Positions 54,552 to 61,880 of a stretch of DNA of 64,000 bases are shown here, in pieces. Positions within the stretch are counted from its first letter, which is position 1; every line of letters begins with the position of its first letter. Origin of the DNA: Bacteroidales bacterium (GTDB lineage Bacteria; Bacteroidota; Bacteroidia; Bacteroidales; JAQUTK01); NCBI GenBank assembly GCA_028709785.1, contig JAQUTK010000019.1:1-64000 (forward strand), read 5' to 3'. The notes under the pieces were generated by a model. The model was not told the origin of the DNA, did not search any database, and was given only the letters and a program-made list of their open reading frames with translations. The position numbers were made by a program, and so were the translations under genes.

Positions 54552-55532
54552 TTAAGCGTTCGTTCCAAAGAGCAGATTGACAAATTGCGGCGTTGTCAGG
54601 TTATGAATATACTCTTCCATGGCTATTCCTTCCAGCCTCTTTTCGATAGCCTCGCGCGAATATTCCGTCTCCTTCAGTCGAGCAAACAACCCCTTGTCGA
54701 GGTCACCTACCAGAAAGTAGTCCCCGATCATATTCATCCCCTTGATAATATTGTTTTTCAGTTCCAGCCGTACCTCGACCTCACCGGCCTCCACATAGCT
54801 TCGTTTGACAATGGTATAGCGCGGATTGTTACCCTGTATCCATTCCGGTGCCAGGTATTCCTTTTCCAGTTCCTCGATGCCGGCAATCTCTTCCCGGGTC
54901 AGCATCCGTTCCCCGTCGCACAGGTGTTTGCGCACAAACTCTTTAAATGCTTCGATGTCCATCTCCAGATGTTCTGATAAGTTTGTCACCCGTTTGCGTA
55001 CCGACTCGACCCCCTTACTGATCAGTTTCTCGTCGCTCGGTGTGATGGCACGTACCATCTCCTCTACATTCGTGTCAAACAGCATTGTGCCATGCACGAT
55101 ACTCTTTCCTGCCACTCTGTAAAAGGCGTTTCCGGATACCTTTTTTTCATGAATGAGAATATCATTCCTTCCCGAAGCCACCGCAGGCACACCCAGCTGT
55201 TGCAGCAGGTGAGCCACCCTCCGCAGGTACGTATCGAAGGTAAATCCCACATTAAAGTCTTTGGTAATATAGCAAAACATGATATTGCTCAGGTCGGCAT
55301 AGACACACCCGCCACCGGACTTCCGCCGGTACACCTCGATTCCTTTTTCACGCACGTATTTCAGGTTGACCTCGTTTTCCATCAGCTGGTTGCGACCAAA
55401 GATGACCGTAGGATGTACCTGCCACATAAAGAAACACTCTTCAAGATCCAGATTGCGCGCTACATACTCTTCCATGGCAAGATAAAATGACAAGCGTCTG
55501 ATGCCGATATCAGGCAAAGCAATATAATTCAT
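54552..55532 (-). CDS. lplA: lipoate--protein ligase
   Basis: RRKSGGGCVYADLSNIMFCYI, GRNDILIHEKKVSGNAF. Confidence 0.93.
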   Translation of the reverse strand: MNYIALPDIGIRRLSFYLAMEEYVARNLDLEECFFMWQVHPTVIFGRNQLMENEVNLKYVREKGIEVYRRKSGGGCVYADLSNIMFCYITKDFNVGFTFDTYLRRVAHLLQQLGVPAVASGRNDILIHEKKVSGNAFYRVAGKSIVHGTMLFDTNVEEMVRAITPSDEKLISKGVESVRKRVTNLSEHLEMDIEAFKEFVRKHLCDGERMLTREEIAGIEELEKEYLAPEWIQGNNPRYTIVKRSYVEAGEVEVRLELKNNIIKGMNMIGDYFLVGDLDKGLFARLKETEYSREAIEKRLEGIAMEEYIHNLTTPQFVNLLFGTNA

Positions 55533-55571: not shown

Positions 55572-55742
55572 CGTAATGTTTTTAGAATGGAAATGTTTAA
55601 CAAGAAATTATTCAGACAATCAGCTGAGATTTATAAACCCTGCAATTAGGGAAAACAACAAGAAAAGTCCCTAATTTCTTATGATTTATAGTTATTTCGT
55701 CAATTATTCCGTCAGATTGTTGGTCAGTTTCAAATTAATACT

Positions 55743-55750
55743 TAGTTTTG
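55743..55750 (+). promoter_or_regulatory. -7 box for the ilvD leader transcript
   Basis: TAGTTTTG preceded at 20-nt spacing by a TTG (55720-55722), fitting the Bacteroidetes promoter pattern. Confidence 0.6.
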
Positions 55751-55778
55751 TCGCAGATTTAAAAAGAAGAAACCGGAT

Positions 55779-55850
55779 ATGTTTCAAAAAAGTACAGCAA
55801 ACCTGCTATTGGTCAACGTCATTATCCTCGTGGTCTGCGAAAGAGCTTGA
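55779..55850 (+). CDS. ilv operon leader peptide MFQKSTANLLLVNVIILVVCERA
   Basis: 23-aa ORF with 10 Leu/Ile/Val codons clustered, stop codon overlapping the antiterminator segment; too short for the ORF track. Confidence 0.85.
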   Translation: MFQKSTANLLLVNVIILVVCERA

Positions 55851-55919
55851 GAAAGGTTGCATGTACTTATAAAATTAAATAATGATGATGCCTTTCTCAG
55901 AAACGAGAAAGGTTTTTTT
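55849..55919 (+). terminator. transcription attenuator: antiterminator segment 55848-55856, terminator hairpin 55891-55912 plus T7
   Basis: CCTTTCTC-AGAAAC-GAGAAAGG-TTTTTTT terminator; an identical GAGAAAGG lies at 55849-55856 at the leader stop codon. Confidence 0.88.
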
Positions 55920-55937
55920 ACTTTATACAGTTAGGTT

Positions 55938-57740
55938 ATGAAGAATCAGTTACGCAGCTCCTTCAGTACGGAAGGACGCAGGATGGCCGGAGCCAGAGCG
56001 CTTTGGGCTGCCAATGGGATGAAAAAAGAGCAGATGGGCAAACCTATCATAGCCATCGTCAATTCCTTTACTCAGTTTGTGCCCGGTCATGTGCATCTGC
56101 ACGAGATCGGCCAGCAGGTAAAAGCAGAAATAGAAAAGCTTGGATGCTTTGCCGCGGAGTTCAATACCATTGCTATTGATGACGGTATCGCCATGGGACA
56201 CGATGGAATGCTCTATTCGCTCCCTTCCCGCGACATCATCGCCGACAGTGTCGAATATATGGTCAATGCCCACAAAGCTGATGCGATGATCTGCATCAGT
56301 AACTGTGATAAGATCACTCCGGGTATGCTGATGGCCTCCATGCGCCTCAATATCCCCACGATCTTTGTCTCCGGCGGACCGATGGAAGCCGGACGGTGGA
56401 ACGGAAAGAAGCTCGACCTCATTGACGCGATGGTACAGTCTGCCGACCCTTCAGTCAGTGACGAAGAAGTGCGCAACATAGAAAACAATGCCTGTCCGAC
56501 CTGTGGTTCCTGTTCCGGCATGTTTACCGCTAACTCGATGAACTGTTTGAACGAAGCCCTCGGAATGGCACTTCCCGGAAACGGCACGATTGTAGCGACC
56601 CATGTCAATAGATATCAGCTCTTCCTGGATGCCGCCCGCATCCTTGTGGAAAACGCCTTCAAATATTACCGCGATGGCGACGACAGCGTATTGCCCCGCA
56701 GCATTGCTACCCGTGCGGCCTTCCTCAACTCCATGACACTGGACATTGCCATGGGTGGTTCCACCAATACCGTGCTTCACCTGCTGGCAATCGCGCATGA
56801 AGCAGAAGTGGATTTCACGATGGACGACATTGATCAGTTAAGCCGCAAAGTACCCTGTCTCTGCAAGGTAGCACCCAACTCACAAAAATATCACCTTCAG
56901 GATGTCAACAAAGCAGGAGGAATCCTTGCCATCCTCAGCGAACTGGCCAAAGGCGGACTGGTGGACACCACCGTGCATCGCGCGGACTGTCTCACACTTG
57001 CCGAGGCGATTGATAGGAACGATATATGCAGCAAGCATGTCACTCCCGAGGCGATCAACCGTTACAAGAGTGCCGCAGCCAATCGTTTCAACCTTGTTCT
57101 CGGTTCGCAATCCGACAGCTATGACGGACTTGATACCGACCGTGACACCGGTTGTATCCGCGACCTCGAACATGCCTATACCAAAGATGGCGGACTTGCC
57201 GTGCTCAAAGGTAATATCGCGCAAGACGGCTGTGTCATCAAGACCGCCGGTGTAGATGAGAGCATCTGGAAGTTCAGCGGTCCGGCTAAAGTCTTCGACT
57301 CACAAGACGCAGCCTGCGACGGCATCCTCCGCGGCAAGGTTGTCAGTGGCGATGTCGTGGTTATCACCCACGAAGGACCCAAAGGTGGACCGGGAATGCA
57401 GGAGATGCTCTATCCGACTTCCTACATCAAGTCCAAACACTTAGGCAAAGAATGCGCCCTCATCACTGACGGACGTTTCAGCGGAGGCACCTCCGGACTA
57501 AGCATCGGTCATGTCTCTCCCGAAGCTGCCGCCGGCGGCAATATCGGAAAGATTATGGACGGCGACATCATAGAGATAGATATTCCCGGCCGCAGCATCA
57601 ACGTTCGTCTGAGCGATGCAGAGCTGGCTGCCCGCCCCATGACCCCTGTCACCCGTACCCGCTTCGTGCCCAAGAGCCTCAGAGCTTATGCCAGCATGGT
57701 GAGTTCGGCAGACAAGGGAGCTGTAAGAATGATCGACTAA
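55938..57740 (+). CDS. ilvD: dihydroxy-acid dehydratase
   Basis: [51 protein letters not shown]. Confidence 0.98.
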
Positions 57741-57765: not shown

Positions 57766-59463
57766 ATGGGAAAAGAGATAATCAAAGGATCAGAAGCATT
57801 GATGCGCTCGTTGATACACGAGGGCGTTGACTGCATCTTCGGTTACCCCGGAGGTGCCATCATGCCGGTATATGACAGTCTGATGGATCATACCGATACA
57901 CTACATCACATACTGGTCCGTCACGAACAAGGTGCCGTACATGCTGCGCAAGGTTATGCCCGCACATCCGGCAGAGTGGGTACCTGTATTGTGACCAGCG
58001 GACCGGGTGCCACCAATGCCATCACAGGCATCGGCGACGCCATGCTCGACAGTACACCACTCGTTGTTATCACCGGACAGGTGGCTTCATCTCTCCTCGG
58101 TAGCGACGCTTTTCAGGAGATAGACGTCGTCAGTATCACACAGCCGATCTCCAAATGGAGCTATCAGATCCGTCATGCCTCGGATATTGCCTGGGCAGTA
58201 GCCCGTGCTTTTTATATTGCAGGCACTGGTCGTCCCGGACCAGTGGTACTCGACTTTGCGAAAAATGCTCAGATCGAGATGACAGAATATGAACCATTTA
58301 ATATAGAGTTTATCCGTGGCTATAATCCATGGCCGTCCATCAGTGAAGAATCCGTTCAGGAGGCAGCTAAGATCATCAACGCAGCCAGGAAACCTTTTGC
58401 TGTTGTCGGTCAGGGTGTCGAACTCGCAGGAGCCAATGCCGAACTGCTGGCCTTGATTGAGAAAGCCGACATACCTGTAGGACGAACGCTCCTTGGACTT
58501 TCCGCATTGCCATCCGGTCATCCGCTCAATAAAGGGATGCTCGGCATGCACGGCAATCTCGGGCCCAATGTCAAGACCAACGAATGCGATGTCCTGATCG
58601 CTATCGGCATGCGTTTTGACGACCGTGTCACCGGCGATCTCAAGACCTATGCCAAACAAGCGAAAGTCATTCATTTTGATATTGACCCGGCTGAGATTGG
58701 CAAGAATGTAAAACCTACTGTTGCCGTGATTGGTAATTGTAAGCTGACCCTTCCGGCTGTAACCGCACTGGTGGAGAAAAACAACCACCGCGAATGGATC
58801 GACAGCTTTATTCCCAGCGAAGTCAAAGAACATGATCTTGTGATCCACAGCGAACTCTATCCCGAACAGGGACCCATCACCATGGGTGAAGTAGTCTCCA
58901 AAGTGACGGAAGCAACACGCGATCATGCCGTGCTTGTGACTGACGTCGGACAGAATCAGATGATTGCAGCCCGTTATTTTCGCTTCACGGAACCACGCAG
59001 CGTGGTCACCTCCGGCGGACTCGGCACCATGGGTTTCGGACTTCCCGCGGCTATCGGAGCCACCTTCGGCGCACCCGACCGTACGGTTTGCCTCTTCTGC
59101 GGCGATGGCGGTTTGCAGATGACCATCCAGGAGTTGGGCACCATCCTTGAGTCCGGTGCTCCTGTCAAGATCATCCTGCTCAACAATAGTTACCTCGGCA
59201 TGGTACGCCAGTGGCAGGAACTATTCTTCAACAAACGTTATTCCTGTACCCCGATGATAAACCCGGACTTTGGCAAGATTGCTGAGGCATACAACATTCC
59301 GAGTCGCCGTCTGCATCTTCGTGAAGAACTCGAAGACGCGATCCGGGAGATGCTCACCACCGACGGTCCTTTCCTCCTTGAAGTAGGAGTGGTTAAAGAG
59401 TCCAATGTCTTTCCGATGGCACCGGCAGGACAGGATGTAAGTGTTATGATGTTTGACTGTTAA
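57766..59463 (+). CDS. ilvB: acetolactate synthase large subunit
   Basis: FGYPGGAIMPVYD, ThDP motif GDGGLQMTIQELGTILESGAPVKIILLNN. Confidence 0.98.
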   Translation: MGKEIIKGSEALMRSLIHEGVDCIFGYPGGAIMPVYDSLMDHTDTLHHILVRHEQGAVHAAQGYARTSGRVGTCIVTSGPGATNAITGIGDAMLDSTPLVVITGQVASSLLGSDAFQEIDVVSITQPISKWSYQIRHASDIAWAVARAFYIAGTGRPGPVVLDFAKNAQIEMTEYEPFNIEFIRGYNPWPSISEESVQEAAKIINAARKPFAVVGQGVELAGANAELLALIEKADIPVGRTLLGLSALPSGHPLNKGMLGMHGNLGPNVKTNECDVLIAIGMRFDDRVTGDLKTYAKQAKVIHFDIDPAEIGKNVKPTVAVIGNCKLTLPAVTALVEKNNHREWIDSFIPSEVKEHDLVIHSELYPEQGPITMGEVVSKVTEATRDHAVLVTDVGQNQMIAARYFRFTEPRSVVTSGGLGTMGFGLPAAIGATFGAPDRTVCLFCGDGGLQMTIQELGTILESGAPVKIILLNNSYLGMVRQWQELFFNKRYSCTPMINPDFGKIAEAYNIPSRRLHLREELEDAIREMLTTDGPFLLEVGVVKESNVFPMAPAGQDVSVMMFDC

Positions 59464-59474
59464 AACAATAACGT

Positions 59475-60044
59475 ATGGAAAAGACAGCATTAGATATAGA
59501 TAAGAAGATCTACACGATCAACGTATATTCGGAAAATATCGCCGGATTGCTCAATAAGATTACAAACATCTTTACCCGTCGTCAGCTCAATATCGAGACC
59601 CTGAGCGTATCAGCATCCTCTATTGAGGGGATACACAAATATACGATCACCACCGTTACCGATGAGGCAACAGTCGATAAGGTGACCCGTCAGATGGAAA
59701 AAATTATTGATGTTCTGCAGGCGCATTATTATCTGGATGATGAAATCATTTATCAGGAAATAGCTCTTTACAAAGTTCCTACTGATGAATTGCTCAACGG
59801 TCCCGGCATCGAGCAATTGGTGCGTAAGCACAACGCCCGCATCATGGAGGTCAATCGTACATTTACCGTTATCGAACTGACCGGTCACCCGGAAGACACT
59901 GAAGCCCTCTATGCAGAACTTAGTGAGATCGGCCTCTACCAGTTTGTACGTTCCGGTCGTATCGCCATCACAAAAAGTCCCGTGGAGCGTCTGAGCAATT
60001 TCCTGGCGAATATTAAAAAAATAGCCGACAAGCGAAATGACTGA
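59475..60044 (+). CDS. ilvN: acetolactate synthase small subunit
   Basis: ACT domain YSENIAGLLNKITNIFTRRQLNIETLSVS. Confidence 0.96.
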   Translation: MEKTALDIDKKIYTINVYSENIAGLLNKITNIFTRRQLNIETLSVSASSIEGIHKYTITTVTDEATVDKVTRQMEKIIDVLQAHYYLDDEIIYQEIALYKVPTDELLNGPGIEQLVRKHNARIMEVNRTFTVIELTGHPEDTEALYAELSEIGLYQFVRSGRIAITKSPVERLSNFLANIKKIADKRND

Positions 60045-60801
60045 AAACAATAAGATCGGACGCTATACCTTCCTGGCAGAGCCTTTCCACTGCGACAGCA
60101 GCGGCAAGCTCTCCATGGGATATATGGGCAACACCTTGCTCAACTGCGCCGACTTTCACTCCAAGAGCCGCGGTTTCGGCATGACCTACCTCCACGACCA
60201 CAACTGCACCTGGGTGCTCTCGCGTTTCGCCATCGAGATGTACGAGATGCCCGCCCAGTACGACCGGTTTGAAGTCGAGACCTGGGTAGAAAATGTCTAT
60301 CGCCTCTTTACCGACCGTAACTTTGCGATCTACAATGCCGCCGGCACGATCATCGGCTACGGCCGTTCCGTCTGGGCGATGATTGATGTCACCACCCGCA
60401 AACCCCTCGACCTGCTCGCCCTTCACAGCGGATCCATCACCGATTATATCTGTGACCATCCCTGTCCGATGGACAAGCCCTCCCGCATCAAACTCCGTGA
60501 GGGTCAGGAGGTCGGTCGGTATGTGGCGCGCTACAGCGATATCGACATCAACGGACACGTCAACAGCATCAAGTACATCGACCATATCCTCGATCTCTTT
60601 CCCCTGGACTATCATCTGAGTCGCAAAGTCACCCGGTTTGAAATGGCCTATGTCGCTGAGACCTATTGCGGTGAAACCCTCACCTTTTACCGGGAGGAGA
60701 CAGCCCCGCAGACCTTCGACATCGAAGTAAAGAAAGAAGAGACACTCATCTGCCGCAGCAGAGTCTGTTTCTCCGACCAAACAACAAACAATGAACAATA
60801 A
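60037..60801 (+). CDS. acyl-[acyl-carrier-protein] thioesterase
   Basis: Two hotdog repeats; WVLSRFAIEMYEMPAQYDRFEVETWVE, YSDIDINGHVNSIKYIDHILD. Confidence 0.93.
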   Translation: MTENNKIGRYTFLAEPFHCDSSGKLSMGYMGNTLLNCADFHSKSRGFGMTYLHDHNCTWVLSRFAIEMYEMPAQYDRFEVETWVENVYRLFTDRNFAIYNAAGTIIGYGRSVWAMIDVTTRKPLDLLALHSGSITDYICDHPCPMDKPSRIKLREGQEVGRYVARYSDIDINGHVNSIKYIDHILDLFPLDYHLSRKVTRFEMAYVAETYCGETLTFYREETAPQTFDIEVKKEETLICRSRVCFSDQTTNNEQ

Positions 60802-60833: not shown

Positions 60834-61880
60834 ATGGCAATTATGAATTTTGGAGGGGTAGAAGAACAAGTCGCTACCCGTGAAGAATTTCCACTCGAGA
60901 AAGCTCGTGAAGTATTGAAAGACGAAGTGATCGCAATCATCGGTTACGGTGTACAGGGTCCCGGTCAGTCTCTCAACCTCAAGGACAACGGATTCAATGT
61001 GATCGTTGGTCAACGTAAAGAGTCCAAGACATGGGACAAAGCCATCGCTGACGGATGGGTGCCGGGAGAGACTCTCTTCGAGATTGAAGAAGCCTGCCAG
61101 CGTGCTACGATTATCCAGTACCTCTTGTCTGATGCAGCACAGATCGCTGTATGGCCTACTATCAAGAAATACCTGACCCCGGGCAAAGCCCTCTATTTCT
61201 CTCACGGTTTCGCCATCACTTACAAAGAACGTACCGGTATCATTCCTCCGGCAGACGTCGATGTGATCCTCTGCGCACCTAAAGGTTCGGGTACATCTCT
61301 TCGCCGCATGTTCCTGCAAGGTCGCGGACTGAATTCCTCTTATGCAGTATTCCAGGATGCTACAGGCAGAGCTTTGGAACGTACCATCGCATTAGGGATC
61401 GGTATCGGATCCGGTTACCTCTTTGAGACCACCTTCAAACGTGAAGTCTACTCAGACCTTACCGGCGAACGCGGTACCTTGATGGGTGCTATCCAGGGAC
61501 TCCTTCTCGCACAGTACGAGACACTCCGTGAAAACGGTCACACCCCATCCGAAGCCTTTAATGAAACAGTAGAAGAGCTGACTCAGTCACTCATGCCACT
61601 GTTTGCAGAAAACGGAATGGACTGGATGTACGCCAACTGTTCAACTACCGCACAACGCGGTGCATTGGATTGGATGGGCCCGTTCCACGATGCTACCAAA
61701 CCTGTATTCCAGAAGCTCTATGCAGAAGTAGCCTGTGGCAACGAAGCACAACGCTCTATCGACACCAATTCCAAGCCCGATTACCGCGCCGGACTGGATG
61801 CTGAACTCAAAGCCCTTCACGATAGCGAGATGTGGCGTACAGGAGCCGTTGTACGTAAGTTGAGACCGGAAAACAACTAA
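60834..61880 (+). CDS. ilvC: ketol-acid reductoisomerase
   Basis: IGYGVQGPGQSLNLKDNGFNVIVGQR, FSHGFAITYKERTGIIPPADVDVILCAPKG. Confidence 0.98.
   Translation: MAIMNFGGVEEQVATREEFPLEKAREVLKDEVIAIIGYGVQGPGQSLNLKDNGFNVIVGQRKESKTWDKAIADGWVPGETLFEIEEACQRATIIQYLLSDAAQIAVWPTIKKYLTPGKALYFSHGFAITYKERTGIIPPADVDVILCAPKGSGTSLRRMFLQGRGLNSSYAVFQDATGRALERTIALGIGIGSGYLFETTFKREVYSDLTGERGTLMGAIQGLLLAQYETLRENGHTPSEAFNETVEELTQSLMPLFAENGMDWMYANCSTTAQRGALDWMGPFHDATKPVFQKLYAEVACGNEAQRSIDTNSKPDYRAGLDAELKALHDSEMWRTGAVVRKLRPENN

Follow-up and report, generated by a model that had tools for sequence, protein, structure and literature searches.

A probable ribosome-mediated transcription attenuator ahead of the ilvD-first operon of a Bacteroidales bacterium, with counterparts across the order

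The closest described systems are the attenuators of the enterobacterial ilvGMEDA, ilvBN and leuABCD operons, the last of which constitutes the Rfam Leu leader (RF00512). In these systems, as in the leader described here, a leader peptide rich in Leu, Ile and Val, or in Leu, is followed by four RNA segments that obey a pre-emptor, antiterminator and terminator logic. The leuL peptide of E. coli reportedly uses the rare Leu codon CUA, and CTA is also carried by the ilvD leader.

Leader peptides controlling branched-chain amino acid (BCAA) genes are likewise described in other phyla, among them an upstream ORF encoding a leader peptide that controls the BCAA operon at Corynebacterium ilvB-II (PMC10272879) and, for the BCAA genes of S. 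aureus, a Leu-rich attenuator (PMC5794164). The Bacteroid-trp RNA (RF01692; Weinberg et al. 2010, PMC2864571) is a cis-regulatory RNA of the same phylum as the present locus, although it concerns a different amino acid and operon, and its model does not match the ilvD leader. In Flavobacterium psychrophilum, from the same phylum but another order, leader-peptide attenuation was inferred upstream of amino-acid operons (PMC9723704), in a passage that names no operon, structure or family, and a study of B. thetaiotaomicron (PMC7366714) notes short ORFs that resemble leader peptides. Within the open-access literature searched, no description of attenuators ahead of ilvD or leuA in Bacteroidales came up, and any priority is tentative. 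The mechanism is classical, and it is the family and its spread that appear new.

The window analysed here is a stretch of 64,000 nucleotides from a Bacteroidales bacterium (contig JAQUTK010000019.1), in which an operon of the order ilvD-ilvB-ilvN-thioesterase-ilvC is headed by a leader that is very probably a ribosome-mediated transcription attenuator (Table 1). It differs from the enterobacterial attenuators in the lack of an Rfam match and of a Shine-Dalgarno-like start, in the ilvD-first order of its operon and in its Bacteroidetes-type promoter. The upstream neighbour, a lipoate-protein ligase gene (54552-55532), is divergent from the ilv operon, so the terminator in the leader is not the end of another operon. 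Between these divergent units, and some 40 nt ahead of the -33 element, lies an inverted repeat, AATTAGGGA-N15-TCCCTAATT (55644-55676), which may be an operator. Within the operon, the thioesterase-like gene (60037-60801) overlaps ilvN by 8 nt, and its role in a BCAA operon is perhaps branched-chain acyl release.

Table 1. Features of the ilv operon and its leader, in window coordinates, and the sister leuA leader
Feature	Position	Strand	Remark	Basis
-33-like element GTTG	55719..55722	+	probable promoter element, 20 nt before the -7 box	sequence, interpreted
-7 promoter element TAGTTTTG	55743..55750	+	consensus TAnnTTTG	sequence
Leader-peptide ORF, MFQKSTANLLLVNVIILVVCERA and stop, 23 codons	55779..55850	+		sequence; 1 of 82 distinct ilvD leader peptides
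Segment 1, pre-emptor arm	55790..55804	+	pairs with 55854-55868	
Control codons L9-V19 (CTG CTA TTG GTC AAC GTC ATT ATC CTC GTG GTC)	55803..55835	+		sequence
Segment 2, antiterminator 5' arm TGAGAAAGGT	55848..55857	+	overlaps the stop codon	
3' arm of the 1:2 pre-emptor hairpin	55854..55868	+	AGG common to segment 2	
Segment 3 GCCTTTCTCA	55890..55899	+	partner of segment 4 or, alternatively, of segment 2	
Segment 4, terminator 3' arm	55905..55913	+	second GAGAAAGG copy at 55905-55912	
T7 run of the intrinsic terminator	55913..55919	+		sequence
ilvD, dihydroxy-acid dehydratase	55938..57740	+		NCBIfam TIGR00110, over cut-off
ilvB, acetolactate synthase large subunit	57766..59463	+		TIGR00118, over cut-off
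ilvN, acetolactate synthase small subunit	59475..60044	+		TIGR00119, over cut-off
Acyl-ACP/acyl-CoA thioesterase-like gene	60037..60801	+	inside the operon	weak TIGR00051 match, below cut-off
ilvC, ketol-acid reductoisomerase	60834..61880	+		TIGR00465, over cut-off
Sister leuA attenuator	L159 5377-7100 (G000:C40)	-	same CCTTTCTCAC terminator as the ilvD leader	

An earlier note had described a -7 box, a 23-aa ORF, the overlap of its TGA with a repeated element and the coordinates of the RNA segments, all of which were confirmed base for base from the sequence. Leu, Ile or Val occupy 10 of the 23 residues of the peptide, and the TGA (55848-55850) overlaps GAGAAAGG (55849-55856); CCTTTCTC, within segment 3, is found at 55891-55898. 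The antiterminator proposed in that note, formed by TGAGAAAGG (55848-55856) and CCTTTCTCA (55891-55899), is indeed a perfect 9-bp helix. The intrinsic terminator consists of a 9-bp hairpin and the T7 run, 18 nt before the ilvD ATG (55938). As for segment 1, the pairing of GCAAACCT with AGGTTGC was retained but its extent was not, as the real arm is longer: AAGUACAGCAA-A-CCU (55790-55804) pairs with AGGUUGC-A-UGUACUU (55854-55868) over 14 bp, with two single-base bulges.

In the proposed mechanism, the first ribosome would translate the 23-codon leader behind an advancing RNA polymerase. With ample charged tRNAs for Leu, Ile and Val, the ribosome would reach the stop codon (55848-55850) and cover segment 2, in which case segment 3 would pair with segment 4 and transcription would end at the T-run before ilvD. 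Under a shortage of any of the three amino acids, the ribosome would stall on codons 9-19 and leave segment 2 free to pair with segment 3, precluding the terminator and allowing transcription of ilvD-ilvB-ilvN-thioesterase-ilvC. A stall at the earlier control codons would also block segment 1. With the ribosome stalled on the final Val codons, segment 1 would lie free behind it and might re-pair with segment 2 around the ribosome, which would count against the switch. In an untranslated leader, the 1:2 hairpin would form, giving the terminator by default. The sequences show the components and how they are conserved, the competing pairings, the codon content and the spacing; termination in vivo and a response to amino-acid starvation are predicted.

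The switch put forward in the earlier note, in which a stall frees segment 2 and a ribosome at the stop masks it, was also predicted by footprint-constrained folding, an equilibrium computation with assumed ribosome footprints, for which the sizes known for E. coli were used, as in the spacing argument below. With the ribosome placed at the stop codon, the computed probability of the terminator was 0.82 and that of the antiterminator 0.00, while with the ribosome stalled at L9, V14, V18 and V19 the probability of the antiterminator was 0.99, 1.00, 0.79 and 0.92, respectively. The ribosome-free minimum-energy fold comprised the 1:2 hairpin and the terminator. The region of segments 2-4 was far more stable than its shuffled versions (z -3.9, with 0/200 shuffles equally stable), and the whole 177-nt leader only modestly so (z -1.5).

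Nor is the arrangement a chance one. The pattern GAGAAAGG-N20..50-CCTTTCTC occurred a single time in the whole 3.55-Mb genome. A detector was defined by three requirements, namely a terminator, an upstream segment with the matching complementarity and a short ORF in which Leu, Ile or Val fill at least 7 of 10 residues, and its false-positive rate was drawn from the window, the pattern searches and shuffles. Across the 636 tiles of the window, the ilvD leader was the sole match, and none was obtained in 2,940 dinucleotide shuffles of ilvD upstream regions. Applied to the his, thr and trp operons of this genome, the detector found no attenuator upstream. Other matches of the ilvD-leader model in this genome (C43 and C8) were rejected, being terminators with no Leu/Ile/Val ORF.

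For comparison, ilvD upstream regions were gathered from 80 named contigs and from genomes of the order Bacteroidales, totalling 152 loci. The full combination of Leu/Ile/Val mini-ORF, terminator and complementary segment 2 was detected in 83 of the 152, that is, in 83/137 Bacteroidota loci and in 0/15 records labelled as other phyla, and it was present in 33 of the 46 Bacteroidales families sampled. Named carriers include Phocaeicola faecalis, Bacteroides propionicigenes, Marinifilum and Labilibaculum. No leader was detected before ilvD in the remaining 13/46 families, several of which had a Leu/Ile/Val ORF and/or a terminator below the thresholds, and the Leu/Ile/Val ORF is present in Bacteroides graminisolvens and Odoribacter laneus, which the full detector did not score; several more loci carry part of the arrangement, and the counts are therefore conservative. 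Among 24 distant ilvD genes from other orders of the class, a candidate leader was found in two, so that for ilvD the attenuator is largely a Bacteroidales feature. Both of these (L252 and L256, from another order of the class) have Leu/Ile-rich leaders and GTGCCTC...GAGGCAC terminators, and possibly represent an independent attenuator.

The alignment of related ilvD upstream regions, named as a check in the earlier note, showed the Leu/Ile/Val mini-ORF and the alternative hairpins to be conserved across the order, each locus having its own specific 2:3 and 1:2 pairings. This specificity was observed in a swap test, in which the duplex energy of segment 2 with its own segment 3 or with that of other species was compared. 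The 2:3 duplex had an energy of -16.4 kcal/mol with the own partner vs -11.8 with that of another species (z -16.0), and 5,000 permutations gave at best -12.9; for the 1:2 duplex the values were -17.1 vs -12.8 (z -13.1; 82 leaders). These z-scores are inflated by sequence relatedness, although most families are represented by only one or two genomes. Complementarity between own segments 2 and 3 was kept even where segment 3 has no CTTTCTC, as in GGAGGGCT/AGCCCTCC and GACCCGGAAA/TTTCCGGGTC; these two pairs and AATCGGTATGT/ACATGCCGATT are wholly different in sequence. In an alignment of 36 rows, 93.0% of antiterminator cells were paired, with 13 double-changed cells vs 2.8 expected from shuffles, and 98.8% of terminator cells were paired, with 11 double-changed cells vs 3.0 expected, whereas slid controls reached 46-68%. 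The possibility that CCTTTCTC / AGAAAGG acts as a mimic of the 16S rRNA 3' tail, CCUCCUUUCU, was considered and rejected: such resemblance is not required, as lineages whose segment 3 has CCATTCTC, CCGTTCTC, TTTCCGGGTC or GCCGATT keep the pairings without it.

The position of segment 2 relative to the control codons is also constrained. Across the 65 leaders in which segment 2 was strong, it started 10.0 +/- 2.4 nt (range 3-15) past the last Leu/Ile/Val codon. The spacing of segment 2 to the stop codon, by comparison, ranged from -25 to +4 (sd 8.1 nt; Brown-Forsythe p 1.5e-5 between the two spacings). The conserved distance is therefore that between the stalling site and segment 2, and these 10 nt are about what would be covered by a ribosome stopped with the final control codon in its A site. 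The stop codon lies inside segment 2 or well past it, and either way an unstalled ribosome covers the segment. A terminator as strong and conserved as this one might also serve merely to limit ilv expression at a fixed ratio, through unregulated partial termination. However, such a device has no need for a covarying antiterminator, a pre-emptor or Leu/Ile/Val codons at a fixed distance, and it is extremely improbable as an explanation of this leader.

The promoter elements of the leaders follow the Bacteroidetes type. The -33-like GTTG at 55719-55722 resembles TTTG, the -33 consensus of the group, and transcription is inferred to start just 3' of position 55750. In 71/78 leaders a TAnnTTTG motif lies in the 100 nt preceding the ORF, against 8.4 expected from shuffles. 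Its median distance of 34 nt points to a 5' UTR of probably about 20 nt ahead of the leader. A Shine-Dalgarno-like tetramer preceded the leader start in only one of 82 ilvD leaders (1.9 expected by shuffling), a scarcity that is usual for Bacteroidota.

The amino acids encoded by the leaders match the pathways downstream. The same genome has a second leader, with the peptide MNQSFLHILLSILIILLGKPMGSEQCA, before leuA-leuC-leuD-cimA-leuB; this peptide is rich in Leu and Ile and has no Val. The cimA of this operon is citramalate synthase-like, its best match being CimA of the Leptospira type, below the cut-off of that model. The operon would make Leu and plausibly, through the cimA-like gene, Ile, so that each leader would report on what its own operon makes. 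In total, 25 leuA leaders were found. Val accounted for 365/915 of the Leu, Ile and Val residues in the 82 ilvD leaders vs 9/239 in the 25 leuA leaders (p 3e-33), and in 16 of 17 same-genome pairs the ilvD leader had more Val. Codon choice is also distinctive: CTA makes up 21% of Leu codons in ilvD leaders and 33% in leuA leaders vs 3% in ilvD genes, an approximately 7-fold enrichment, and GTC makes up 46% of leader Val codons vs 16% in ilvD genes. Ile does not follow a rare-codon rule, since ATT, its commonest codon, is preferred in leaders (72% vs 41%). This uneven rule may mirror the order in which tRNA isoacceptors become uncharged.

These data bear on two other readings of the locus. The mini-ORF could encode a functional hydrophobic microprotein, with the hairpin as the plain terminator of a small transcript, as the peptide is very hydrophobic and its position is conserved over the whole order. 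Nevertheless, no residue conservation goes beyond the Leu/Ile/Val content, Val nearly disappears where the downstream operon makes Leu and Ile, the rare CTA is preferred, segment 2 tracks the last Leu/Ile/Val codon, and the 2:3 and 1:2 pairings are locus-specific, which makes this reading highly unlikely. Riboswitches and T-boxes, too, act through alternative hairpins that end in a terminator, and the RNA could be a real switch that binds a ligand or a tRNA directly, the ORF being incidental. However, Rfam covariance models gave no match to the ilvD leader at the gathering score, including RF00512, RF01692, the T-box (RF00230) and known riboswitches, and at E <= 1 the only match was a chance one to a microRNA, far below its cut-off. 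Moreover, apart from segments 2-4 and a GTGTAT-like stretch after segment 2, no conserved aptamer-like block was present, and leader codon composition tracks the pathway, leaving direct sensing by the RNA with a minimal probability.

Ribosome-mediated attenuation, the preferred reading, may extend to other operons. RF01692 is absent from this genome by covariance search and present in relatives, one of which (G020; L298, G020:C59) has a match to the ilvD-leader model before trpB, with a WWW-containing leader peptide, MNFLLTNTFWWWHSQLKKS, and the same segment layout, overlapping an RF01692 match. The ilvD-leader model also matches before gltB-like genes, for the large subunit of glutamate synthase, in two further genomes (L300 and L301; G008:C40 and G015:C308). 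These upstream regions contain GAGAATGGTAT ... CCGTTCTC ... terminator, but the short ORFs close by lack any evident run of regulatory codons.

We lean slightly towards the broader view that leader-peptide attenuation is order-wide, perhaps phylum-wide, that it was independently assembled in Bacteroidota, serving ilv, leu/cim, trp and possibly gltB operons, and that it implies coupling between RNA polymerase and the first ribosome. If this is true, the two would move in step even though the phylum mostly lacks Shine-Dalgarno initiation, and segment 2, lying 10 nt beyond the final control codon, would by its position record the leading edge of the ribosome. The spread of the attenuator over at least 33 Bacteroidales families, including Bacteroides and Phocaeicola, predicts this control of BCAA synthesis in abundant gut bacteria. 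The leaders are ready-made ribosome-stalling reporters, with which transcription-translation coupling in Bacteroidota becomes directly testable.
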